DNA from: an uncultured Bacteroidota bacterium
GTDB taxonomy: Bacteria > Bacteroidota > Bacteroidia > Flavobacteriales > Flavobacteriaceae
DNA: 38,496 nt
Assembly (NCBI GenBank): GCA_902622575.1
Contig: CACNQJ010000008.1
Coordinates: 7,501-45,996 of the forward strand
Direction of reading: 5' to 3'
In this document: piece after piece, positions 6,614 to 38,496 of the stretch
Position numbering within the stretch: position 1 is the stretch's first letter
Layout of the letters: each line of letters begins with the position of its first letter
Made by a program: the position numbers and the translations under genes
The notes under the pieces: model-generated
The model's database searches: none
What the model was told of the DNA's origin: nothing
Seen by the model: only the letters and a program-made list of their open reading frames with translations

Positions 6614-7620
6614 AATTTAAAATTAAAGTCATTCACTGCTTTTTTAAATTTTTTAATAGCATTGTCTAGTTCTCCATCAAATTTACCACCTGCTGCATTT
6701 TTATGTCCACCACCATTAAAAAATTCTTTAGCAAACTTATCACATGGAAAGGTATTTTTTGATCTAAAAGATATTTTTATTTTGTTTGTCTCTTCAAAAT
6801 CTTCAATAAAAATTGCAGTAAAATCAATATTTTTTAGGGATAAACCATAATTTACTAGTCCCTCAGTATCCCCTTTTTCATAACCGTTTTCAATTAATTC
6901 ATTCCTTGTTAAAAACATAAAAGTTGTTTTACTTTCACTTAAGTATTTCAAATTACCCAAGGCACATCCAAGTAGCCTTAGTTTACTTAGATTATTGCTA
7001 TTGTATATGTTATTGTAAATTTTTGAGTGATCAATTCCATTAGAAAGTAATGTTGATATTATTGAATGTGTTTCGTTATTGACTCCATTATATTGAAACG
7101 AACCAGTATCTGTCATTATTCCAAGATACAAACAGGTTGATATGTTTTTATCGGTTAAGTTCCTCTTACTAAGTTTGGTAATTATCTTGAACACCAGCTC
7201 ACAAGTTGACGATATTTCAGGATATGAAAAAGAAATTTTTGCATAATCTGAGGGAGATTGATGGTGATCAATCATAACAACTTCATGTCTATATTTATCT
7301 ATATTTTCACCAATTAATCCACATCTTTTTAAATCATTGAAATCAAGTGTGAATATTACATCAGCTTCTTGGATTAATTTTTCAGACTTTTCAATATTTT
7401 CATCAAATACAATTACATTATTACACCCAGGAACCCAGTTTAAGAAACTTGGATGTTTGTTTGGGGTAACAACACTAACTGTATAATTCAATTTTTTAAA
7501 AAAATGATACAGTGCGAGACTACTTCCGATAGCATCTCCATCTGGATTTGTATGTGTTGTGATTATTATTCTCTTATCTGTGGAAAGTAACTTTTCTAGT
7601 TCTTTTATTTTTCCTTCCAT
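6610..7620 (-). CDS. nrnA: DHH-family oligoribonuclease / pAp phosphatase NrnA
   Basis: 336 residues, the usual NrnA length. DHH motifs are clear: [12 protein letters not shown] near residue 26, DFNDLKRCG near 97, the signature MIDHHQSP near 116, and [11 protein letters not shown] near 170. The C-terminal DHHA1 motif [10 protein letters not shown], which binds the substrate, is also present. NrnA degrades very short RNA oligomers and dephosphorylates 3'-phosphoadenosine 5'-phosphate, linking RNA turnover to sulfur assimilation, in the cytoplasm. It is the first gene of the minus-strand group with the isomerase and DUF3810 protease. A perfect TAnnTTTG element lies just upstream. Confidence 0.9.
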
Positions 7621-27198: not shown

Positions 27199-27578
27199 TG
27201 AGATTAGTTTATTTCATAATTATAATTTCACTTTCACTACATTCTCAAAATGAAATCAAATCAATAGATTTTGATGAGTACTCATCTTTATCCAAATCTA
27301 AAGACTTTTTAATTGTTGATGTTAGAACACCGGAGGAACATAAAATTAGTAGAATCAACAATTCTATTAATATTGATTTTTATGATGAAAAATTTATCAA
27401 AATGTTCAAAAAGATAGATTATGATAAACATGTACTAGTTTATTGTAGATCGGGCAGAAGAAGTCTTGAAGCAGTTAAAATATTGATTAACGAAGGATTT
27501 AGTAAGCTATATGATTTAAAGGGAGGTGTTTTGGCTTTAGATAAATCAAATATTGATTTTGGTTCCCTCGATGACTAA
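27198..27578 (+). CDS. Exported single-domain rhodanese
   Basis: 126 residues. A short hydrophobic N-terminus (MRLVYFIIIISLSLHSQ) looks like a signal peptide. One rhodanese domain follows, with FLIVDVRTPEEHKISRINNS near residue 35 and the active-site loop VYCRSGRRS (cysteine near residue 77), then LKGGVLALDKS. It should carry sulfane sulfur as a cysteine persulfide, probably in the periplasm. It is translationally coupled to the double-rhodanese protein upstream. The 3' end overlaps the convergent methyltransferase by 33 bases. Confidence 0.85.
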   Translation: MRLVYFIIIISLSLHSQNEIKSIDFDEYSSLSKSKDFLIVDVRTPEEHKISRINNSINIDFYDEKFIKMFKKIDYDKHVLVYCRSGRRSLEAVKILINEGFSKLYDLKGGVLALDKSNIDFGSLDD

Positions 27579-28163
27579 AGTTCCTTTCCAACTTCCAGAG
27601 CTACACAACTGATATTTTTTTACATTACTAAAACCAGATTCTATAAAAAGTTTTTCCCATTCATTTATTTTCATGAGATTCATTATGGAAACGCCAGTTT
27701 TTTCTTGCCAGTCGTGACAATCAGGATTTTCGTAATAAAAATCAATTCCCATCACAAATTTCCCATTTTTATCTAACCAATTATTAAAAATATTTCTAAG
27801 AACATTTATTGGATTTTCAAAATAATATAAAACCTCCATTGATATCACGGCATCTACTTTATTTACAGGTTTCCATTTCAATAAATCACCAAGAAAATAT
27901 TGATTATTTGAATCCAGTTTTTTTGCTTTTTTAATCATCAAATCAGAACCATCTATCCCACAGGAACTTTTGCAATTTGGATGTTTTCCAATATACCTAA
28001 CAGCCCATCCATTCCCACAACCAGCGTCAATAATCGAAAATTTTCCTTTTGAATTGACTATAATATCAAACATTTTTGAAACAGATTCAAAGTGATTCTT
28101 TTCCATACCATCATCCTTCCCATTCCTAACCCAATTAGAGAAGGTTTCTATAGGTGTCTTCAT
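27546..28163 (-). CDS. Class I SAM-dependent methyltransferase
   Basis: 205 residues with no signal peptide. Motif I is IIDAGCGNGWAVRYIG near residue 43, motif II CGIDGSDLMIKKAKK, and the motif IV region VDAVISMEVLYYF. This is a standard Methyltransf_11-type fold. The substrate is not evident; the acidic end of motif II binds the SAM ribose. It is the last gene of a minus-strand run (sulfatase, GH2, YwaF-like, this gene) with a one-base junction before it, which would make it part of that transcript. A link to glycan metabolism is only positional. Confidence 0.85.
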   Translation of the reverse strand: MKTPIETFSNWVRNGKDDGMEKNHFESVSKMFDIIVNSKGKFSIIDAGCGNGWAVRYIGKHPNCKSSCGIDGSDLMIKKAKKLDSNNQYFLGDLLKWKPVNKVDAVISMEVLYYFENPINVLRNIFNNWLDKNGKFVMGIDFYYENPDCHDWQEKTGVSIMNLMKINEWEKLFIESGFSNVKKYQLCSSGSWKGTLVIEGTKINI

Positions 28164-28164
28164 A

Positions 28165-28857
28165 TCAGGCTTTCTTTCTTGTTGTAATAACGTAAGTAGT
28201 GTAAGTAAAAATAACGATTATAAACTCCCAATAAATAACATAATATGGCCATTCTCCAATAATAAGTGGATTATTAACATTAGGAGGGTAGGCTAAATAC
28301 ATGTAATTAGAATCAATTTGAAAATTCAATGGCATAACAACCATAAGCACAACATTTAAATATAAAACTACTCTAAGCCATGAAAACTTAGTTATTTCAT
28401 AATTTAAATAATTGTACATGAATATTGGTAGTAAAATAATCCCAGCATGGCTAAAATGATATTCAATGTACTCATAATTAGATCCGTCAAAATTATTAAT
28501 TTGTGGAGTTAAAAAAGCTTGAATTCCACCAATGATTCCAGCATAAAATAAGAATTCAAACAAAACTTTATTCTTTTTAGTAAATAGTATAAAACAAGCA
28601 ACAAGATTTGAAATTCCACATAAGTGCAAGGGTAAATTCTCAGAAATATTCCAATATCCATTTGCAATATTTCTAGCATGACCAGTAACTGTGGTTATTA
28701 TTAATAGAATTGCAATTGATTTAGCTAAAAAAAGTCTCTGTTTGTAGGATAATAGTCTTCCAATAAAGAGGATCAGTAAAATATATAGTAATGAAACTAT
28801 AGTATTTCTTGTCCATTCATTGGAAAGAAAATCAATTACATAGTTTTCCGTGTTCAC
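28165..28857 (-). CDS. TIGR02206/YwaF-like integral membrane protein
   Basis: 230 residues starting at a GTG codon one base after the GH2 stop codon. About seven membrane helices span the protein. The signature LPLHLCGISNLVACFILF, followed by AGIIGGIQAFLTPQI and HFSHAGIILLPIFMY, matches the YwaF/TIGR02206 family, whose members have conserved histidines in the membrane core. Function unknown. The gene is in the same tightly packed run as GH2 and sulfatase genes. Confidence 0.82.
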   Translation of the reverse strand: MNTENYVIDFLSNEWTRNTIVSLLYILLILFIGRLLSYKQRLFLAKSIAILLIITTVTGHARNIANGYWNISENLPLHLCGISNLVACFILFTKKNKVLFEFLFYAGIIGGIQAFLTPQINNFDGSNYEYIEYHFSHAGIILLPIFMYNYLNYEITKFSWLRVVLYLNVVLMVVMPLNFQIDSNYMYLAYPPNVNNPLIIGEWPYYVIYWEFIIVIFTYTTYVITTRKKA

Positions 28858-28858
28858 T

Positions 28859-31831
28859 CTATCTAAAGTAATTAATAATATTCAATAAAACTATTTCTGA
28901 TACAGGATCATAATTTAAGTTTTCAACTAGTTTTAACGTAGATAAAACCATTTTCCCATTATTATATTTTACAATAGAAAGATCAGATCCAGACCAAACT
29001 TCACCTGAGCCAATATAATTCCTTTTTAGTATGTTTCCTTCTGGTATTCTGTCAAAAGCAATTGTTTGAACAATATTTTCACCTTTAAAATTTCTTAAAC
29101 TGATGGTTGGAGCAATATTTTCATAGACACCACTCATATTAACATTAACAGGTAGATTTTCAAAAAATTTATGCTTTGAGTTAATGTGTAGGATACCATC
29201 CCATAAACCTTGTGATATATTTTTAATAGGTTTTTGTGGTAAATAATCAATACCATCTGGCACAAATGTTAAATTTGGTCCGATTCTTTTTCTAGTTTTT
29301 CCGGGTATTTTTAAAAAAATTGCATTACCACCACTAGCCACAAAAACATTAATATTGTCAATAAGCTTCTTAAAATTATTTTTAATGTCAGTGTTGCCTT
29401 TTTCAATTATATTTCCATCTTTAGAACTAAAAAATTCACTATCTGATTGATTAATGATTACTGTTGTGTTTTTATCAGTTTTTTCATTAAAAATCTCATA
29501 ACTGATATTATATTTTTTTAAAAAATCAGTTAATTTTTTATCTTCTTTAATTAAAGCAACTTTCAGGTTTTTATTACTACTATCAATAAAAAAAACATCA
29601 AAATTTATTGTTGTTGAATAGTCAACATTTCCATTATTAATTAATGAAACTTTAATTTGATATTCTCCATCACCTAAACTATTTCCTAATTGAATTTTTT
29701 CAAGCTCTGTAATTCCGTTTTTTACATCAACTAAAAACTCATTGGTATATATCATTTTTTCTGTGTTATTTCCTGATATTTTGTCAACACTAAACTTGAC
29801 TTTATTTGTTTCATTTTCATTTTCATTAATTATGATAGTCGAAAATTCAACATTTTCACCAGAGTAATAATTTCTTTTTCCTGTTCTAATGACAGCAATT
29901 TTAGACATGTTACCTTCCTTAGTTTTTTCATAAGCTAAACCCTTAGGATTTCTCCATAAGTCTAATAGTCCAGCACCAATAATCCAATCTCCAGCTGTTA
30001 AGGCATGAACACAGTAACCTATAACGTTACTATTTGATCTTATTGCTTCTAACATTCTCTTGTTAGCTATTCCATGTATTTCTTGCTGTTTTTTGTAAAA
30101 ATTAGACGCAGATTTGAAAACTTTGATTAAACCTGTTTCCTTTAGCTTTTTCTTAATTTCTCTGTTAAATCTAAGGTGATATAAATATGGGTATGTAATT
30201 GGATTACCATCTTTTAAAAATCTCAATTCATTATCTTCCAAATCAGGAAGGCTTCCATAACCTATTTCTGAAACATATGAGGGTATGTTTGGAACAACAT
30301 TCCTCCCAGGTGTTCTAGCCTTAAGACCAAGTTTTTTATTTTCCTCAGGTGTCTTGCCAATCGTTAAAAAACCATCAAATTTGTTATTATTTATGTTTGG
30401 TCCTGGATAATTATGAATATCGTTGAATTTAAATGCTTTAGTGCTGTAGGGGAGATATAAATTAGCTCCTTCAGCCCATCCACCAGATTCATCTAGTATT
30501 AGTCTTGTTGGATCAAGCTCTCGTGCTTTTAATGACATTGGTTTTAACATGTTTGCAAGTACAGGTCTTCTAATTTCATTAAATAACTCCCATTGTACAA
30601 TTGAAGGATGGTTCCTGTCCCTAAGAATTGCTTCAGTAATTTCACTTTCAACTCTTTGAGGTAAATATGGTGTTTCAATAGGCATATCCATACATTCAAT
30701 CGCCATACTTCCAACAGTTAATACACCAATTGAATCTGCCAAGTGTAACCATTCCTTTGGAGGAGGTTTTCTCCAAGGTCGAATCATATTAAATCCTGCC
30801 TTTTTTGCCAATAAAATTTCTTTTATCATCATTTCTTTTGAATCAGGATATGAAAGTTTCACTGGATATAATCCTTCAAAAAAAGCAGCTTTTAAATATA
30901 ATGGCTTATCATTTAAATAAAATTTGTTGTTTTTTACTGTAAATTCTCTGAAACCAAATGTTTCTTTAACATTATCAAGTTCAGTAATAACTGTGTCTTT
31001 TTCACTAATGTTAACTTTTTCTAATTTGATATCAAATTCATACAAAAAAGGATTATCGGGTGACCAAGTTTTATGATTCTTAATTCTATTTTTTATTTTT
31101 TTAATTACATTCAGATTTGAGTTTTCAAGTTTCAAAAATTCTTCAAACTTGTGATTTTGGTCAACATTGTATGTCAATTTATATAACCCATCACCTAAAC
31201 CATTAGTTATTTCATTTATAACCTCTATATCTCCATTCATAAAGTTTCCTGTAATAAAGACGTCTTTTATATGTGTTTGTGCTGTGTATGAGAGAAATAC
31301 ATCCTGCCAAATTCCACCTGTGTATGACCCTCTCCATTGTGGAGTCTCCATTTGTCCAATTCCATCAATAACTTTATCTTGAATTGTTATTGGTCCCATA
31401 ACCTTTACAATTAATACATTTTCTGTATCGAAATCAATTATATGTTCAATATTGAAACTAAAAGGACTAAATCCTCCTTCATGAAAACCAACAGAATTAT
31501 TATTTAAAAAAACTTCAGTTATATAGTTAGAAGCATTAAAATTTAAATGAATTTTACTGCCCATTTTATCTTTATTAACTTTAAAACTTGTTCTGTAGTA
31601 AACAACTCCTTCATAATCTTTTTTAAACCTCTCCCATACACTTGGAACAGCAATTTTTTCAATCTTTCCTTTTGAAAACCCCTCATTACTATTATAAGAT
31701 TCTGATTTACCAATGTTGCTATAATCATATATTATTTCCCATTCTCCATTCAAATAGGTAATATCATCACGGATTTGTGAGTAGTTAATTAGAAATAAAA
31801 AAATAAAAATTACTGATGAAATCTTTTTCAT
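28859..31831 (-). CDS. Glycoside hydrolase family 2 enzyme (beta-galactosidase/beta-glucuronidase-like), exported
   Basis: 990 residues with a signal peptide (MKKISSVIFIFLFLINYSQ). The jelly-roll sugar-binding domain covers about 24-185 (LNGEWEIIYDYS, AVPSVWE, VVYYRTSF). An Ig-like domain follows to about 300, then a TIM barrel with the general acid/base Glu419 in WELFNEI and a likely nucleophile Glu522 in YVSEIGYG. The last 300 residues are beta-rich and may include a further sugar- or protein-binding module (SGGNAIFLKIPG). GH2 enzymes release terminal beta-linked sugars with retention of configuration; the exact sugar cannot be read here. The ATG directly abuts the sulfatase stop codon, arguing for joint action on a sulfated glycan. 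Confidence 0.88.
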   Translation of the reverse strand: MKKISSVIFIFLFLINYSQIRDDITYLNGEWEIIYDYSNIGKSESYNSNEGFSKGKIEKIAVPSVWERFKKDYEGVVYYRTSFKVNKDKMGSKIHLNFNASNYITEVFLNNNSVGFHEGGFSPFSFNIEHIIDFDTENVLIVKVMGPITIQDKVIDGIGQMETPQWRGSYTGGIWQDVFLSYTAQTHIKDVFITGNFMNGDIEVINEITNGLGDGLYKLTYNVDQNHKFEEFLKLENSNLNVIKKIKNRIKNHKTWSPDNPFLYEFDIKLEKVNISEKDTVITELDNVKETFGFREFTVKNNKFYLNDKPLYLKAAFFEGLYPVKLSYPDSKEMMIKEILLAKKAGFNMIRPWRKPPPKEWLHLADSIGVLTVGSMAIECMDMPIETPYLPQRVESEITEAILRDRNHPSIVQWELFNEIRRPVLANMLKPMSLKARELDPTRLILDESGGWAEGANLYLPYSTKAFKFNDIHNYPGPNINNNKFDGFLTIGKTPEENKKLGLKARTPGRNVVPNIPSYVSEIGYGSLPDLEDNELRFLKDGNPITYPYLYHLRFNREIKKKLKETGLIKVFKSASNFYKKQQEIHGIANKRMLEAIRSNSNVIGYCVHALTAGDWIIGAGLLDLWRNPKGLAYEKTKEGNMSKIAVIRTGKRNYYSGENVEFSTIIINENENETNKVKFSVDKISGNNTEKMIYTNEFLVDVKNGITELEKIQLGNSLGDGEYQIKVSLINNGNVDYSTTINFDVFFIDSSNKNLKVALIKEDKKLTDFLKKYNISYEIFNEKTDKNTTVIINQSDSEFFSSKDGNIIEKGNTDIKNNFKKLIDNINVFVASGGNAIFLKIPGKTRKRIGPNLTFVPDGIDYLPQKPIKNISQGLWDGILHINSKHKFFENLPVNVNMSGVYENIAPTISLRNFKGENIVQTIAFDRIPEGNILKRNYIGSGEVWSGSDLSIVKYNNGKMVLSTLKLVENLNYDPVSEIVLLNIINYFR

Positions 31832-33388
31832 TTATTTGATGTTTGAGAACCCCTCTGGGACCACAGGATAGGTCATTTCTTTTAAAAGATTCCTTAGTTC
31901 TTGTGTTTTTGGGTGAGTTTTGTTAAATATTAAATTATTCCATTCTTTGGGATCGTTGGAATTATTGTATAGTTCTTCTTCACCAGTATTGTATAATATG
32001 TATCTCCAATCTCTTGTTCTAACCGAATAGTGATGATTAGATGGTATATCAGCATTTTTGTCAGATGTATAGACTACACTTAAAGCTCCATCTGGGCCTT
32101 CCCATTCATTTAAATTGGGAGTTTTTAAAAATGGTTTTAAACTAAATCCATCTAGTGGTCTTCCTTGATCATTTTTGGTAGTTTCAAAGTCAAGCCCTGC
32201 TAAATCCAATAACGTTGGGTAAACATCTATTAATGATACTGGATGATATACTTTGGAATCAGCTTTAGATATTCCAGGAGCTCTAATGAGCATCGGAACT
32301 CTTGTGCTTTCTTCCCACAGAGAATTTTTATATACATGTTCTTTTTCACCCATTGTCCATCCATGATCACTTACAATAACAACTATAGTATTGTCTTTTA
32401 ATTTGGAATTATCTACAGCATTAAGAACCTGTCCTATATTTTCATCTACTGCTGTTACACATGCCAAGTATGCCTGTGTGAATCTTTTTAAACCTTCCTT
32501 ATCATCTGCGTATGATGCAACCAAGTTTTTATACATTTGAATTGATCGAACTCTTCTGCCAGGTGTTTCAAATTGACTGACAGTATGCAAATAAGTATCA
32601 TCTTTGTCATTCTCTAAAATATTTGCAAGTTCAATATCCTCTAGAGGATACATATCAAAGTATTTTTGTGGTACGATCAAGGGTGTATGAGGTCTTAAAA
32701 AACCAACAGCGAGAAAAAAAGGTTTTTCATTATCGGAGTTTGCTAATTCTGATAATCTATTTTCTGCCCATTCGGCATTAATTTCATCTGGTGTAAGATC
32801 TCTATTATTTTCATCTATGTATTTAAATGTTTTGCCCTTTCTTGATGGACCATATGCCCATCTAACTTCCTTGCCATCAACTTTAACACCATCTAAATTT
32901 TTAAGAGGACCGTAAGAACCATCAATAGCACCTCCTGCCATATTAAAACCATCAAGATCTTTTACTGTTCTGTATGGTTTAGGAACATCTGGATGAGCAA
33001 TCCCTTTTTTACCTCTTTTCCATTCACCTTGATATGCAATTGGACTGTAGTCAGCTTGATGTTCAAATTCAGTCCACAATTCATTTTTATTATGGTGTAA
33101 TATCTTACCACTTCCTATAACATCATAATTATTTTCTTTAAATTTTTCCATTATGGTTTTTGTGTTCGACAAAACATTGTTTTGTAACCATGATCTTTGC
33201 CAAAAGTTAGAGGAGTTATGAGGATACACCCCAAGTAACATGCTTGATCTAGATGGACCACACATTGGATCGTTTGAATAAGCATTCTTAAATGATACAG
33301 CCGATTTAGCAAAATTTTTGATATTTGGAGTAACAACTTGTGGATGACCATTTAGATCTTCATTATAATCATTTAAATCATCAATCAT
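31832..33388 (-). CDS. Type I sulfatase (iduronate-2-sulfatase-like), signal peptide out of frame
   Basis: 518 residues from the first in-frame ATG. Formylglycine-type sulfatase: Cys43 in MCGPSRSSMLLG fits CxPxR, so it needs an anaerobic-type or FGE-type maturase. Metal ligands are visible at MIDDLND and IVVSDHGWTMGEKEH. The opening DDLNDYNEDLNGHPQVVTPN resembles iduronate-2-sulfatase-like members (tentatively S1_7). The ATG at 33388 is not the natural start: the same frame continues upstream through SCNNQEKKPPNILLIM, the normal lipobox and first strand, but without any start codon. The signal peptide lies in another frame (see 33389-33480). As written, the protein would not be exported. Confidence 0.85.
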   Translation of the reverse strand: MIDDLNDYNEDLNGHPQVVTPNIKNFAKSAVSFKNAYSNDPMCGPSRSSMLLGVYPHNSSNFWQRSWLQNNVLSNTKTIMEKFKENNYDVIGSGKILHHNKNELWTEFEHQADYSPIAYQGEWKRGKKGIAHPDVPKPYRTVKDLDGFNMAGGAIDGSYGPLKNLDGVKVDGKEVRWAYGPSRKGKTFKYIDENNRDLTPDEINAEWAENRLSELANSDNEKPFFLAVGFLRPHTPLIVPQKYFDMYPLEDIELANILENDKDDTYLHTVSQFETPGRRVRSIQMYKNLVASYADDKEGLKRFTQAYLACVTAVDENIGQVLNAVDNSKLKDNTIVVIVSDHGWTMGEKEHVYKNSLWEESTRVPMLIRAPGISKADSKVYHPVSLIDVYPTLLDLAGLDFETTKNDQGRPLDGFSLKPFLKTPNLNEWEGPDGALSVVYTSDKNADIPSNHHYSVRTRDWRYILYNTGEEELYNNSNDPKEWNNLIFNKTHPKTQELRNLLKEMTYPVVPEGFSNIK

Positions 33389-33480
33389 TATTAAAAGAAT
33401 ATTTGGTGGTTTTTTTTCTTGATTATTGCAGCTATTAAATAAAAAAACGAAAGCAATAAAATTGATATGTGTTTTATCAT
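33389..33480 (-). other. Frameshifted lipoprotein signal peptide of the sulfatase
   Basis: On the minus strand an ATG at 33480-33478 begins MIKHISILLLSFF, a good signal peptide start, but this frame soon ends. A run of seven T on the coding strand (33441-33447 here) separates it from the sulfatase frame. Adding one T gives MIKHISILLLSFFLFNSCNN and joins it to EKKPPNILLIMIDD, with lipobox FNSC. So the intact gene would run from 33480 to 31832 as a surface lipoprotein. A one-base error or real slippage at the T7 tract explains the break. Confidence 0.8.
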
Positions 33481-33533
33481 AATATTTATTTTTATATTTA
33501 TTATTCTCATATAAATATCATTATTACTAATCT

Positions 33534-35309
33534 ATGAAAAAGAAAATTTTTTTACTAATAATATCTTTTTTTGTTATTGCATGTTCATCTGACTCTGGAG
33601 GTGATGGTGGAGGCTCAGATAACGGTGGAGGAAACAATAACGGTGGGGGTAATAATAACGGTGGAGGAAATAATTCGGGATCTGGAAACAGTACAGATCC
33701 AAATGATTACGATGCATCTACATCCCCTGGAGATACGACATATTACATAAGCTTCAATTCAGGTAACGATAACAATGACGGAAAGAGTGAAGATAAGCCA
33801 TTTAAAAATTTAGGAAAAATTAATAGTATAACCTTTAAACCTGGTGATAAAATTAAATTTAAATCTGGTGAAACATGGAAGGGTTATTTTAAGCTTAGAG
33901 GATCTGGGTCTGAAAATAAACCAATTGTTATTGAAAACTATGCTAGCGGTAACAAACCTATTATTGATGGTGATGGATATCAAGCAGCTGTGTTCATTGA
34001 AAATAGAGAATATGTTACTGTTTCTGGCCTAGAATTAACAAATCAAGCGTCTCATAAAAACAGTAGTGGATCAGTTAAACTTATGGACCAATCAAGTAGA
34101 TCAGGATTAAATGAAAGATATGGACTACTAGTTCTAAGAAGTGGGTCAAATAACATCAACAATATTAGCTTAAATGACTTAAAAATCAACAACATATATC
34201 CTTCTCCTACTAACTCTGATAACAATCACAAAGGTTATGGTATTAGATTTGAATCAGAAAATAATGACAATGTTTTAAATTTTTATGATGGTATAATAGT
34301 TGAAAATTTAGATATTTCGAACACTGGACATTATGGTTTGCACATAGTAAATAGAATGTCGGGTGCCCAAGCAGATTTTTATCATAGAAATATTATTATA
34401 AAAAACTCAAAGTTTACTGACACAGGTGGTTCGGGAATTGTTTTAGCCAGATGTAAGGATGTTGTAGTTGAAAATTCTGAATTTAAAGGATCTGGGTCAG
34501 GGAAAGACAACAGAATGTGGAATAGGGGAAGTAGCTTGTGGACGTACACTTGTAATGATACTGTAATTCAAAATAACTTATTTGAGGACGTGTATGGTCC
34601 TGCTGACTCATATGGTGCACATATAGATTGGGGATGTGAAAGAGTCGTAATTCAATATAATTTAAGCAAAAACAATTATGGTGGATTTGCTGAAATTTTA
34701 GGTGAAAATATTATGTGTGGATACAGGTACAACATTAGCATAGGAGATGGAGGAAGAACAAATTCTAATACTGGAAAGACATTTTGGGTTTCTGATTATG
34801 CCGGAAGTAATGAAAGACGAATTGGCTCATATGATAATTTTATTTATAATAATACTGTTTATATACCTAGTGAAAATGCATCAAATAATAATACTCCATT
34901 TGACCATTTAGAAATTTTTTTCAGACAGAATACTAAGGAAACATACATATACAATAATTTAATTTATATAGATGATAAAGCTAAATTAAAGATCAATACT
35001 AGAAATGATGGTACATTAAATGATTGGAAAAACAACTTGTTTTTTGGCAACTTAATTATCGATGGTTCCTCAGATTATGAGCATAATGGAACTGAAATTT
35101 TTTCAAATCCACTTTTAGCTAATCCGGGAGGTTCAACTGCCAATGATTATAAATTACAGTCCTCAAGTCCTGCAATTGGATCAGGTTATGTTATTAATGG
35201 AAGTAGCGATGTAAAAAACTATATTAAGAATAACGGGGGAAAAGATTACTTTGGAAATTCTGTGAGTTCTAATTCAAAACCTAATATTGGAGCATACAAT
35301 GGAAATTAG
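33534..35309 (+). CDS. Right-handed parallel beta-helix lipoprotein (putative glycan-active enzyme)
   Basis: 591 residues. The lipobox FVIAC (Cys17) is followed by a Gly/Asn-rich flexible linker (about 20-55), typical of surface-exposed lipoproteins of this group. The body starts TTYYISFNSGNDNNDGKSED and KPFKNLGKI, then shows stacked short-strand repeats (PIVIENYASGNKPIIDGDGY, VTVSGLELTN, VVVENSEFKGSG, TVIQNNLFEDVYG). This is a pectate-lyase-type beta-helix, used by many polysaccharide lyases and some hydrolases. I cannot assign a CAZy family or catalytic residues. The conserved YGPADSYGAHIDWGCERV segment is shared with the next gene, a paralogue starting directly after its stop codon. Context with sulfatase and GH2 suggests action on a sulfated algal glycan. 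Confidence 0.82.
   Translation: MKKKIFLLIISFFVIACSSDSGGDGGGSDNGGGNNNGGGNNNGGGNNSGSGNSTDPNDYDASTSPGDTTYYISFNSGNDNNDGKSEDKPFKNLGKINSITFKPGDKIKFKSGETWKGYFKLRGSGSENKPIVIENYASGNKPIIDGDGYQAAVFIENREYVTVSGLELTNQASHKNSSGSVKLMDQSSRSGLNERYGLLVLRSGSNNINNISLNDLKINNIYPSPTNSDNNHKGYGIRFESENNDNVLNFYDGIIVENLDISNTGHYGLHIVNRMSGAQADFYHRNIIIKNSKFTDTGGSGIVLARCKDVVVENSEFKGSGSGKDNRMWNRGSSLWTYTCNDTVIQNNLFEDVYGPADSYGAHIDWGCERVVIQYNLSKNNYGGFAEILGENIMCGYRYNISIGDGGRTNSNTGKTFWVSDYAGSNERRIGSYDNFIYNNTVYIPSENASNNNTPFDHLEIFFRQNTKETYIYNNLIYIDDKAKLKINTRNDGTLNDWKNNLFFGNLIIDGSSDYEHNGTEIFSNPLLANPGGSTANDYKLQSSSPAIGSGYVINGSSDVKNYIKNNGGKDYFGNSVSSNSKPNIGAYNGN
33621..33674 (+). repeat. Three 18-base tandem repeats encoding a Gly/Asn linker
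   Basis: Units at 33621-33638, 33639-33656 and 33657-33674 follow AACGGTGGAGGAAATAAT with a few third-position changes, giving NGGGNN repeats. They encode the flexible spacer behind the lipid anchor of the beta-helix protein. Such repeats can change copy number by slippage while keeping frame. Confidence 0.85.
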
Positions 35310-36908
35310 ATGAAAAATATATTTGTGCTTATATTATTTGTTTTTATATCATGTGATTGGATACAATATGGGGAGAAAAACAATATAGGTAATACATTTT
35401 ATTTTAACTCTAATTCAGTAGATAATTCAAATTTAGGAACTAAAGAAAAACCATTCAAAAGTCTTGACTATCTTAAGAAAATTAAACTATCTAACGGTGA
35501 TAAAATATTATTATCAAACGGATCTACTTTTACAAATACAATTGAATTAGTAAACAAAAATGGAATTGAAATCTCAAATTATAAGGCTGATAGTATTGAT
35601 AAACTTCCAATTATTAACTCTAAAGGTAAAATAGCATCGATTTTTATTGAAAATTCATCGAAAATAAAAATTAATAATATTGAAATTACAGCTGACGGTG
35701 GTGGTTCTAATAAATTTTTACATAAAAAAATAAAATCTGATTTAAGATCTGGAATTTTATATTTAGTAACTGATAAAAAATTACATAATAATTTAGAAAT
35801 AACTAATGTTTTAATTAAAGATATTTTTTATGAAAATAAAGGCTTTATTAGGGATCAAAAGGAGGTTAAAACACCCAATGGTACACAAAGTTATGGTTGG
35901 GGTATTAGAATTTTGAATCTATCAGAAAATGGAAATCTTGAAAATATTACTATTAAAGATTCAGATTTTATAAATATTTCACATACTGCTATTAGATTTA
36001 TTGGCAAAAGAAACAATCAATTTAAGAATATAAATATTTTAAATAATAATGTGTTTAAAACAGGAGGACCAGGAATGGTTTTTAATAGTACCACAAATCT
36101 ATTGGCTAAAAATAATGATATTAACTATACAGGATCTAATGATGATTCAAGAAAATGGGGAAGAGGAAGTGGTTTATGGACATGGGGAACTTCTTATGCT
36201 TTAATCACAAACAATAGTTTTCAAAATGCTAATGGACCAGCCGACTCAGCATGATGTCATATTGATTTTAATTGTAATGATATTATTGTTGAAAATAATC
36301 TAAGTAGAAATAACGCAGGTGGTTTTATTGAAATTCTTGGAAACAATTATAACTGTTCCTACAGAAATAATGTTAGCATCAATGATGGTCATAGGTTAAA
36401 AGGTGAAAAAGGTGCATTTCAGGAGGGAAAAACATTTTGGCTTAGTGGATATATAGGTAGAGGCAAAGATAGGAATGGACCATTTAATTCTTATATATAC
36501 GGTAATTATATTTATGTTTCAAAAAATATTATTCCAAAGATTGCTGTAGATAAAAAAGCAAAAGGTGTATTTGTAGCAAATAATATATTTTATTTTGAAA
36601 ATGATCCAGTTATGGTCCTAGGTGATCAATATAAACCTGATCTTGGAGGTAAATTAGAAATTGAAAATGTGTTTTTTGAAAATAATCTGTTTTTAAAAAA
36701 TCATTGGCCAAAAAATGTATTAATTCAACCTACTAATAATATTTATTCAAATAGTTATTTTGAGGTATTTCTTGATGATGCAGGATTATTAGACGATAAT
36801 GGGTTTAGTGTAAATCATACTTATGATTACCCTTATCCAAAGTTTTTCAGCTATATTAAAATTGATTATATAAATGGAGATTCAAATGGTCTCTGGAAAG
36901 GTTTTTAA
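35310..36908 (+). pseudogene. Second beta-helix lipoprotein, interrupted by an in-frame TGA
   Basis: The gene begins at the base after the previous stop codon with a lipoprotein signal (MKNIFVLILFVFISC, Cys15). It is a shorter paralogue of the preceding protein: GTKEKPFKSLDYL, NGDKILLSNGSTF and WGRGSGLWTW match equivalent segments there. After GPADSA a TGA (36252-36254) stops the frame, where the paralogue has glycine in DSYGAHID. The same frame then stays open for another 218 codons (CHIDFNCNDIIVENNLSRNN onward) to TAA at 36906-36908. One substitution from GGA would explain it. As written, a 314-residue truncated product results. Other genes here use TGA as a normal stop, so recoding is unlikely. 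Confidence 0.85.
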
Positions 36909-36911
36909 AAA

Positions 36912-38039
36912 ATGAAAATATCTAAAATAATTCCTTACGTTTTAAATGAGGATCTTGAAAAAGAGTTCTTCTTTTCCCAATGGGAATATAGTAATCGAAA
37001 AATTTGTATTGTAAAGATCATCTGTGATGATGGAATAGTTGGATGGGGTGAAGCTTATGGACCAGCTCCAGTTGTTAAAGAAAGTATTAATTATATCAAA
37101 CAAAATATAATTGGTATGAATCCACTTGAGTCTGATGTTATTTGGTCAACTTTATTTAGAAGAGTTCATGATTATGGTAGATCAGGTGTTTTTGTTTCTG
37201 CAATAAGCGCCATAGACATTGCTTTGTGGGATATTAAAGGAAAATATCATAAACTACCTGTATCTACTTTATTAGGTGGTTCATATAGAGAAAAAATAAG
37301 ACCATATGCAACTGGACTTTATTTTTCCGATTCAAAGACATTAACTGACGATTTATGTAATGAAGCTTTGGAATATGTAAATGAAGGCTTTAAGTCAATT
37401 AAAATGAAGGTTGGTTTAAATTTAAAGGATGATATTGCTAATGTTAAGGCAGTTAGAAATGCTATTGGTCCGGATATTGAATTAATGATAGACTCAAACC
37501 ACGCATACTCATATGATGAGGCTTTAAAATTATCCAAGAAATTAGAAGATCAAGATATTAAATGGTTTGAAGAACCATTGTCGCCTGAGTTTTACGATCA
37601 ATATTCAGAATTTAAATCAAAATCCTTAATCCCAGTTGCAGCTGGTGAGTGTGAGTATCTCAGATACGGTTTTCAAAAACTTTTGGACAAAAACTGTGTT
37701 GATTTTTTACAGATGGATATATGTTCATGTGGAGGTTTGACCGAGGCCAAAAGGATATCAGCATTATCCTTGACAAAAGGAGTTAAAGTTATTCCTCACA
37801 CTTGGGGTTCAGGCATTGCCTTTTATACAGCAATTAATTTTATTTCCAATCTTGAACCAATACCAGGGAGATTATATCTGGAGGATGCATATATTGAATA
37901 TGATAGAACAGAAAATAAAATTCGAGAAAATATTATAAAAGATAATATTATAATGAAAGATGGTTATATTTCTGTTAATGATAAACCTGGTATGGGTGTT
38001 GATGTTGATGAAACTTATTTAAATGAGATAAAGATTTAG
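36912..38039 (+). CDS. Enolase-superfamily (mandelate racemase/muconate lactonizing type) cycloisomerase or sugar-acid dehydratase
   Basis: 375 residues. The capping domain (1-125) has DDGIVGWGEAYGPAPV and AISAIDIALWDIKGK. The barrel has the base pair Lys164/Lys166 in IKMKVG, metal ligands Asp194 (MIDSNH), Glu220 (WFEEP) and Glu246 (AAGECEY), and the Asp269/His296 dyad with PHTWGSG. The whole pattern strongly recalls galactarolactone cycloisomerase, and the neighbouring 3,6-anhydro-L-galactonate cycloisomerases and sugar-acid dehydratases are also possible. It would act in the cytoplasm on an aldonic or aldaric acid derived from the degraded glycan. It lies three bases after the beta-helix pseudogene and two before an aldehyde dehydrogenase that could supply its substrate. 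Confidence 0.85.
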   Translation: MKISKIIPYVLNEDLEKEFFFSQWEYSNRKICIVKIICDDGIVGWGEAYGPAPVVKESINYIKQNIIGMNPLESDVIWSTLFRRVHDYGRSGVFVSAISAIDIALWDIKGKYHKLPVSTLLGGSYREKIRPYATGLYFSDSKTLTDDLCNEALEYVNEGFKSIKMKVGLNLKDDIANVKAVRNAIGPDIELMIDSNHAYSYDEALKLSKKLEDQDIKWFEEPLSPEFYDQYSEFKSKSLIPVAAGECEYLRYGFQKLLDKNCVDFLQMDICSCGGLTEAKRISALSLTKGVKVIPHTWGSGIAFYTAINFISNLEPIPGRLYLEDAYIEYDRTENKIRENIIKDNIIMKDGYISVNDKPGMGVDVDETYLNEIKI

Positions 38040-38041
38040 TT

Positions 38042-38496
38042 ATGAATTTTGGTAACCTTAAAATGTATATAAATGGAGAGTTAACCTCGTCACATAACAC
38101 CATGACTAAGGATATTGTTAGCCCATTAAATGATGAAAAAATAGCAACTCTTGACTGGGGATCAAGCAATGACTCTAATAGGGCTCTTGAATCGGCAAAA
38201 GAGGGATTTAAAGTTTGGTCAAATACTCCTATTAAAAAAAGGAAAGAGTGGATGCTTCTCTTTAGAGAAAAAATATTAGAAAATGAAGAAATATTAAGAA
38301 AGTCTATCTCTTATGAAATGGGAAAACCATACTCAGCCACAGCTGAAGATATTGAATCAATAACAAACAGCTTAAAATATTATTCTGATATTATTGAAGA
38401 CTATCAATCAGACAAAAAAATTATAGATAATGAAAACACTCATAAACACTATTTAGTTTCAAAACCTGTTGGTGTGGTGGTAGCATATTTAGCTTG
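38042..38496 (+). CDS. NAD(P)-dependent aldehyde dehydrogenase family protein, cut by window end
   Basis: The first 151 residues are present and the frame is open to the window end. MYINGELTSSHNTMTKDIVS, ALESAKEGFKVWSNTPIKKR, ISYEMGKPYSATAEDI and KPVGVVVAYLAW are typical of the N-terminal half of the aldehyde dehydrogenase superfamily (succinate-semialdehyde dehydrogenase-like branch). The catalytic cysteine and glutamate lie beyond the window. It oxidises an aldehyde to an acid. Coupled to the cycloisomerase gene (two-base gap), it could oxidise an aldose or anhydro-sugar to the aldonic acid, or a ketoglutarate-type semialdehyde at the end of a pathway. Substrate undetermined. Confidence 0.85.
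   Translation, partial: MNFGNLKMYINGELTSSHNTMTKDIVSPLNDEKIATLDWGSSNDSNRALESAKEGFKVWSNTPIKKRKEWMLLFREKILENEEILRKSISYEMGKPYSATAEDIESITNSLKYYSDIIEDYQSDKKIIDNENTHKHYLVSKPVGVVVAYLA

Follow-up and report, generated by a model that had tools for sequence, protein, structure and literature searches.

A predicted 3,6-anhydro-D-galactose utilisation locus with GH136-like, GH2 and sulfatase genes in an uncultured flavobacterium

How might a bacterium that carries genes for the use of 3,6-anhydro-D-galactose (D-AnG) free this sugar when neither GH127 (DagA) nor DagB is found in its assembly? The question is raised by a gene block at the end of a 38,496-nucleotide stretch (the window; positions 7,501 to 45,996 of contig CACNQJ010000008.1, assembly GCA_902622575.1) of an uncultured Bacteroidota bacterium of the Flavobacteriaceae. 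We consider it probable that this block is the first half of a D-AnG utilisation locus, in which the known Dau pathway would be fed by a front end of GH136-like, GH2 and sulfatase enzymes. In relatives, where no strong GH127 or DagB match was found, what is predicted to be a complete Dau-type set is joined to a sulfatase, a GH2 enzyme and a pair of GH136-like proteins. By these predicted functions the locus departs from the known carrageenan D-AnG system: the sugar pathway is the same, the front end and the kind of host are different.

The block consists of the following genes:

27546..28163, minus strand: class I SAM methyltransferase-like protein (MTase); PF08241, 1.3e-11
28165..28857, minus strand: TMEM164-like integral membrane protein; PF14808, 5.8e-39, and TIGR02206 over its cut-off
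28859..31831, minus strand: GH2-family glycosidase, 990 aa; PF02836/PF02837/PF00703, N-E (E419) and VSE (E522) motifs
31832..33388, minus strand: S1-type sulfatase with CGPSR motif, open reading frame (ORF) without signal peptide; PF00884, 1e-44
33534..35309, plus strand: beta-helix lipoprotein 1 (BH1), GH136-like, with a D358-x6-D365 pair; PF13229, profile and predicted fold
35310..36908, plus strand: beta-helix lipoprotein 2 (BH2), GH136-like, with D312/D319, interrupted by TGA; PF13229, predicted fold of the intact L117 copy
36912..38039, plus strand: DauB-like 3,6-anhydro-D-galactonate cycloisomerase (MR_MLE); PF13378, 3.2e-57, best structure match 5olc
38042..38496, plus strand: DauA-like aldehyde dehydrogenase (ALDH), first 151 residues; PF00171, 3e-22, cut by the contig end

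Pfam and NCBIfam thus place a divergent pair of units, one with sulfatase and GH2 and the other with the beta-helix pair, an enolase-superfamily enzyme and an ALDH, where an earlier reading made from the letters alone (the sequence-only reading) had put them. The minus-strand unit (MTase, TMEM164, GH2, sulfatase) lies 145 bases from the start of the plus-strand unit. Junctions of 0–3 bases within the units had also been noted, and the gaps are indeed 1 (TMEM164/GH2), 0 (GH2/sulfatase), 0 (BH1/BH2), 3 (BH2 frame/MR_MLE) and 2 bases (MR_MLE/ALDH), the 3-base junction being valid only if the in-frame TGA of BH2 is ignored. CGPSR is a formylglycine-type motif, and the signals of BH1 and BH2 are lipoprotein-like in pattern. 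Chance occurrence of the block is unlikely, because the sulfatase and MR_MLE matches to Pfam are strong (1e-44 and 3.2e-57) and relatives keep the same gene order. The window ends where its contig (C8, 45,996 bases) ends.

Which sugar would such a block serve? Compared with all solved structures, the MR_MLE protein matches best 5olc (444 bits; 52.0% identity over 369 residues), followed by 4ggb (310 bits; 37.7%), the agar-type L-enzyme 5xd7 (153 bits) and the dipeptide epimerase 3jva (103 bits); 5olc is the DauB of Zobellia and 4ggb is AtGCI, a galactarolactone cycloisomerase (GCI) (Ficko-Blean 2017, PMC5698469). The protein is therefore not closer to AtGCI than to DauB. The sequence-only reading had suggested a sulfated galactan whose anhydrogalactose passes through the ALDH and the cycloisomerase, and had named GCI as a close relative; the former is supported and sharpened to D-AnG, the latter agrees with the second rank of GCI among solved structures, and the match scores do not suggest the racemase or dipeptide-epimerase clade that it had set against its own proposal. 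In AtGCI numbering, K164, K166, D194, E220, E246, H296, D87 and W298 are identical in 43 of 43 DauB rows, and the window protein keeps the catalytic K166, D194, E220, E246 and H296 together with the pocket residues D87 and W298. The full-length ALDH of a relative (G149), to which the window copy, cut at 151 aa, is 77% identical, matches best 6pnu with 490 bits (next match 321 bits), a structure deposited with the DauA study in Pseudoalteromonas (PMC6923384). Moreover, the KDPG-type aldolase of relatives exceeds the eda cut-off of NCBIfam, and the ALDH, DauB-like protein, symporter, kinase and aldolase predicted in relatives are the gene set of ZGAL_3153-3157. The monomer is very probably D-AnG, because the cycloisomerase is nearest to DauB, the ALDH is nearest to 6PNU, and the symporter, kinase and aldolase accompany them in relatives.

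Could the pair instead act on some other aldose and its aldonate, such as galactose and galactonate or, as in GCI, the lactone of a uronic acid, with no anhydrosugar involved? An identity of 52% leaves room for such a shift, the window protein differs at 19 of 144 columns conserved in GH127-associated DauB, and GCI is the second-best solved match. In NCBIfam the MR_MLE protein comes nearest to the models for arabinonate dehydratase and galactonate dehydratase, though far under either cut-off, and the GH2 protein is nearest to beta-glucuronidases among solved structures. We nevertheless regard this as unlikely, since all catalytic and both named pocket residues are kept, the ALDH is nearest to a structure from the DauA study, and Zobellia DauA was reported to be inactive on D-galactose (PMC5698469). 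Indeed, DauB copies from GH127-associated systems and from systems without GH127 are interleaved on a tree, in which L126, L132, L134, L152, L158 and L162 were labelled as lacking GH127 from the locus alone and one copy of G246 from its contig, C6. Five label changes were needed, at least four of them forced by starred branches, and a division of DauB into two separate clades was rejected. The interleaving argues that the DauB substrate is likely the same in both kinds of system and would have stayed unchanged while the upstream enzymes changed. A uronate-containing sulfated glycan, the other option of the sequence-only reading, is disfavoured and keeps in its favour the beta-glucuronidase neighbours of GH2.

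Is the block found beyond this genome? We searched 397 genomes of one family, of which 35 contain DauB. The block recurs in G004, G332 and G149, two of which belong to the genus of the present genome and one to its family. In L024 (G004) and L071/L072 (G332), MTase-TMEM164-GH2-sulfatase is divergent from BH1-BH2-DauB-ALDH, which continues into a RhaT-like symporter, a PfkB kinase and a KDPG-type aldolase. G149 shows the same continuation of the plus-strand part (L022, L023) and has GH2-TMEM164-MTase on a different contig (L224), at its end. When named genomes were scanned with the BH2 family, 80 loci of 167 relatives were kept, among them 20 loci (L117-L135 and L152, a set that includes G332, G004 and G149) in which BH1 stands beside BH2 together with an ALDH. 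Counted within the DNA stretch scanned around each of them, DauB occurs in 18/20, a RhaT-like symporter in 19/20 and the kinase with the KDPG-type aldolase in 18/20; DauB is absent from L129 and L130, the kinase and aldolase from L133, and the symporter, kinase and aldolase from the short L135. The kinase and aldolase that the sequence-only reading had proposed to look for past the end of the window were thus found in relatives. A Pfam scan of the 28 window ORFs found no SusC/SusD; in L130 and L152 the block is followed by SusC/SusD-like genes, and in L129 by a SusD-like gene. L152 is rearranged, with DauB on the other side and adjoining GH2. The MTase holds the same position in 11/20 loci; of the other nine, eight end early at a contig end and the ninth is L152. 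Two full-length sulfatase genes stand in tandem in L122 and L133.

What are the two beta-helix proteins? A profile built from 25 BH proteins matches five lacto-N-biosidase sequences (E 3e-66 to 2e-52), four of them over profile positions 20-533 of 535 and 6kqs over 19-355, where the match begins after the N-terminal domain (chain position 234 on). AlphaFold2 models of BH1 (pLDDT 85.9) and of the intact L117 copy of BH2 (pLDDT 87.1) agree with this: in Foldseek the first six chains for both are GH136 lacto-N-biosidases, at E 4e-21 to 3e-15 for BH1 and 5e-14 to 2e-11 for BH2. Among the 50 matches listed per model no GH82 carrageenase is named. In ErLnb136 the acid/base is D568 and the nucleophile D575 (Pichler 2020, PMC7335108); with a numbering offset of 2 deduced from the joint fit of W548, D568 and D575, they align with D358/D365 of BH1 and with the matching BH2 pair, and all 38 BH proteins that were aligned have both Asp residues. 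BH1 and BH2 are thus best read, from profile and modelled fold, as retaining glycoside hydrolases of GH136 type, at an aligned identity of 15-22% to solved GH136 members. The idea of the sequence-only reading that they are new depolymerases is partly right, the family being recognisable after all. Known GH136 members require a GH136I partner domain or subunit for activity (PMC7335108, PMC8106489), and no candidate for such a subunit is apparent in the block by position and length, although no search aimed at it was made.

That they are beta-helix polysaccharide lyases (PL6/PL9-like), which would make the glycan uronate-bearing, we consider very improbable. The Foldseek matches after GH136 are other beta-helix proteins, from 3e-7 for BH1 and 9e-7 for BH2, and include PL9, PL6 and rhamnogalacturonan lyase chains (E 3e-7 and weaker), and the profile has a short match to the alginate lyase 6kfn (8.7e-12) beside another short one, 8yk3 (0.0096). 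However, the E-value of the top GH136 chain is lower than that of any other chain by some 14 orders of magnitude for BH1 and 7 for BH2, the sole long profile matches are lacto-N-biosidases, and the GH136 Asp pair is retained in every aligned BH protein.

Are the genes of the front end still intact in this genome? The BH2 frame contains an in-frame TGA at 36252-36254 and is then open to 36908; the stop falls at residue 315, between the putative catalytic D312 and D319. A lipoprotein-like sulfatase signal is found at 33389-33520, upstream of the sulfatase ORF but in a different frame, while a signal-like start is in frame in the three relatives compared; uncut sulfatases of relatives measure 549-576 aa. 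Both features had been overlooked by the sequence-only reading, whose two beta-helix lipoproteins are present, the second split by the TGA. Thus, it is possible, though in our view doubtful, that the block is decaying here, with BH2 and the sulfatase as pseudogenes and their function on the way out. Set against these two breaks is the ratio of non-synonymous to synonymous substitution (dN/dS) relative to two relatives, which is 0.10-0.12 for BH2 after the stop, 0.06-0.09 for the sulfatase and 0.06-0.22 for both genes overall; the values are rough, as synonymous sites are near saturation. This conservation argues that the breaks, if real, arose recently, or else are errors in the sequence. Since BH2 is open and intact in 20/20 related loci (517-580 aa), the TGA in particular would be a recent lesion or a sequence error. 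Recoding of TGA was rejected as unneeded, since 11 others among the 33 window ORFs counted with a stop codon end in TGA too, and is further disfavoured by the absence of a tRNA found in the window and by the open frame of all 20 relatives.

Which enzyme would then release D-AnG? We ran GH127, DagB, GH2 and BH profile searches in the 35 DauB genomes, counting PF07944 matches with E below 1e-30 as strong GH127. Such a match is present in 26/35 genomes, all but three of which (G002, G138 and G180) have it no more than 30 kb from DauB, and absent from nine (G000, which is the present genome, G149, G332, G004, G067, G361, G238, G050 and G389); the first seven of these have no PF07944 match even at E 0.001. 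DagB, searched with a query confirmed by 5opq, occurs in 8/35 DauB genomes and in none of the nine. Over 30 species share dagA with dauA, dauB and dauD as the core of carrageenan utilisation (Ficko-Blean 2017, PMC5698469), and the PF07944 search finds no GH127 dagA of this core in the present genome. The window-type GH2 is found in 8/9 genomes without strong GH127 vs 1/26 with it (Fisher p 3e-6), and BH-profile matches in 8/9 vs 3/26 (Fisher p 6e-5); over the whole sample, BH1-like matches occur in 22/397 genomes, 10 of them among the 35. The sole GH2 exception, G246, carries two DauB/ALDH/RhaT sets: one adjoins GH127 (L209), and the other lies on contig C6 (L075, L076, L211) with GH2 and BH genes and no GH127 match.

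The proposed course is as follows. Imported sulfated galacto-oligosaccharides would be trimmed at the envelope by the sulfatase, the GH2 enzyme and the two GH136-like hydrolases, the latter acting by a retaining mechanism through the conserved Asp pair and probably exo- or biose-releasing, as in lacto-N-biosidase. GH2, BH1 or BH2 would free the D-AnG unit in place of DagA or DagB. The free sugar may be taken up by the RhaT-like symporter, which we presume to be of the DMT sugar/H+ symporter kind, and oxidised by the ALDH; the product would be opened by the cycloisomerase to 2-keto-3-deoxy-D-galactonate, which would be phosphorylated and split to pyruvate and glyceraldehyde-3-phosphate. By their record titles the relatives are single-cell genomes (AG- codes), MED-G bins and other uncultured marine Bacteroidetes of this sort; we assume that these codes denote surface-ocean collections, and the hosts are probably streamlined, surface-ocean Flavobacteria. 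A search of the 1.27 Mb of the present genome gives 16 sulfatase matches. Our tentative proposal, to which we give somewhat less than an even chance, is a second, GH127- and DagB-independent release of D-AnG by GH136-like hydrolases and/or this GH2 clade in such streamlined Flavobacteria with sulfatase-rich genomes, which would imply an unrecognised planktonic carrageenan-like sulfated galactan.

Several observations weigh against the main reading of the locus. The 8/9 vs 1/26 contrast reduces to 2-3 tree-independent pairs, with which a sign test cannot reach significance, and a statistical claim from that table alone was dropped after this tree-aware pairing. G238 lacks both GH127 and GH2, G050 lacks both strong GH127 and BH, and G169, G246 and G323 carry GH127 together with BH. 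Among the enzymes, the nearest solved structure of GH2 is the beta-glucuronidase 7xyr (125 bits), followed by other GH2 enzymes of that kind, so that GH2 gives no support to galactose and some to uronate. In NCBIfam neither the glucuronidase nor the galactosidase matches of GH2 come near their cut-offs, and the same holds for the dehydratase matches of the MR_MLE protein mentioned above; the kinase and symporter matches are below theirs. The sulfatase (L024 copy) is nearest to the arylsulfatase 6hhm (148 bits); its match to an iota-carrageenan sulfatase scores 109 bits, and its nearest solved relatives name no substrate. The GH16 enzymes of two related loci (G361, G246) are nearest to laminarinases; a kappa-carrageenase identity was rejected for them, and because they are laminarinase-like, plain kappa-carrageenan is not shown as the polymer. 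A GH16 gene of the present genome lies on contig C20. Furthermore, 60 of the 80 BH2 loci are without DauB in the stretch scanned, so that the BH2 substrate in those loci could be something other than an anhydrogalactan. Two block genes, BH2 and the sulfatase, are broken in this genome. We infer the polymer and the bonds, and the enzyme functions in the block are predicted throughout.

The completeness of the nine genomes (78-99%) also matters, since the block might belong to ordinary carrageenan use, with GH127 or DagB in unassembled parts of the genomes and the GH2 and BH genes as side-branch accessories. Six of the nine are only 78-87% complete (G000 82%, G149 87%, G332 85%, G067 87%, G361 78%, G238 82%), and the PF07944 match of G050 is marginal (2.2e-5), passing the cut-off when counted with its neighbours; that of G389 (2.0e-4) lies below. 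Weak matches of the same sort occur also in genomes with strong ones. We give this explanation little credence, as G050 and G389 (99%) and G004 (93%) are equally without strong GH127 or DagB, and GH127, where present, mostly lies within 30 kb of DauB, which is not the case here.

How does the locus compare with described systems? The Zobellia galactanivorans cluster ZGAL_3145-3159 shares with it DauA, DauB, DauC, DauD, a DMT sugar/H+ symporter and sulfatases, and a GH2 beta-galactosidase acts on carrageenan oligosaccharides there as well, encoded by a distant gene (PMC5698469). Unlike that cluster, the present system has no strong GH127 (DagA) and no DagB in the genome searches, and instead a compact group of sulfatase, GH2 and two GH136-like proteins. 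The Pseudoalteromonas CarPUL has a DauA-type dehydrogenase, and its D-AnG-releasing enzyme was reported still to be uncovered (Hettle 2019, PMC6923384); it differs in belonging to another phylum and in having GH16/GH167 and characterised sulfatases. With the GH136 lacto-N-biosidases LnbX and ErLnb136 (PMC7335108, PMC8106489) the BH proteins share the beta-helix and an Asp acid/base and Asp nucleophile seven residues apart, but their context is one of marine sulfatases, and no GH136I partner was noticed in the block. By its description, a polysaccharide utilisation locus (PUL) of Winogradskyella forsetii with GH136 and sulfatases, called enigmatic and of unknown substrate, resembles the block, although the passage on it does not mention Dau genes (PMC9723794). 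GH136 is also among the families enriched on a Flammeovirga chromosome (PMC8653839). No published description of this block was found in the literature on GH136 with sulfatases, PULs, carrageenan or D-AnG release, most subscription journals lying outside its scope.

The block would tie GH136 and sulfatase enzymes, elsewhere without an assignable substrate (PMC9723794), to a defined monosaccharide pathway and thereby to a testable substrate, and it points to the step of D-AnG release that is unassigned in Pseudoalteromonas, too (PMC6923384). If the proposal is true, a carrageenan-like sugar feeds small-genome pelagic bacteria and not only seaweed-associated ones; the sugar-cutting enzymes, different from those of known carrageenan eaters, suggest a second route to the use of D-AnG. 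G246, with both types of DauB set in one genome (L209, L211), offers a natural test case.

In the BH2 loci at large, a sulfatase-like ORF is present in 76/80 and DauB in 20/80, the latter being 18 loci of window type, L158 and the Polaribacter bin L162, which is arranged differently. Many of the other loci have the order SusC-SusD-sulfatase-BH2-sulfatase, which is conserved in Algoriphagus (L178, L164, L193 and others), without DauB in the stretch scanned and with nothing observed that links BH2 to an anhydrosugar. Upstream of the block, the window is mostly housekeeping by Pfam (gyrase A, Clp ATPase, MutL, YebC, glycine cleavage T). The MTase and the TMEM164-like protein accompany the GH2/sulfatase unit in 11/20 related loci, eight of the rest being truncated, with no obvious role in sugar use. 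Elsewhere in the present genome, positions 38001-58000 of contig C3 (L217) hold a sulfatase-rich cluster with SusC/SusD-like genes, a possible uptake partner of the block.

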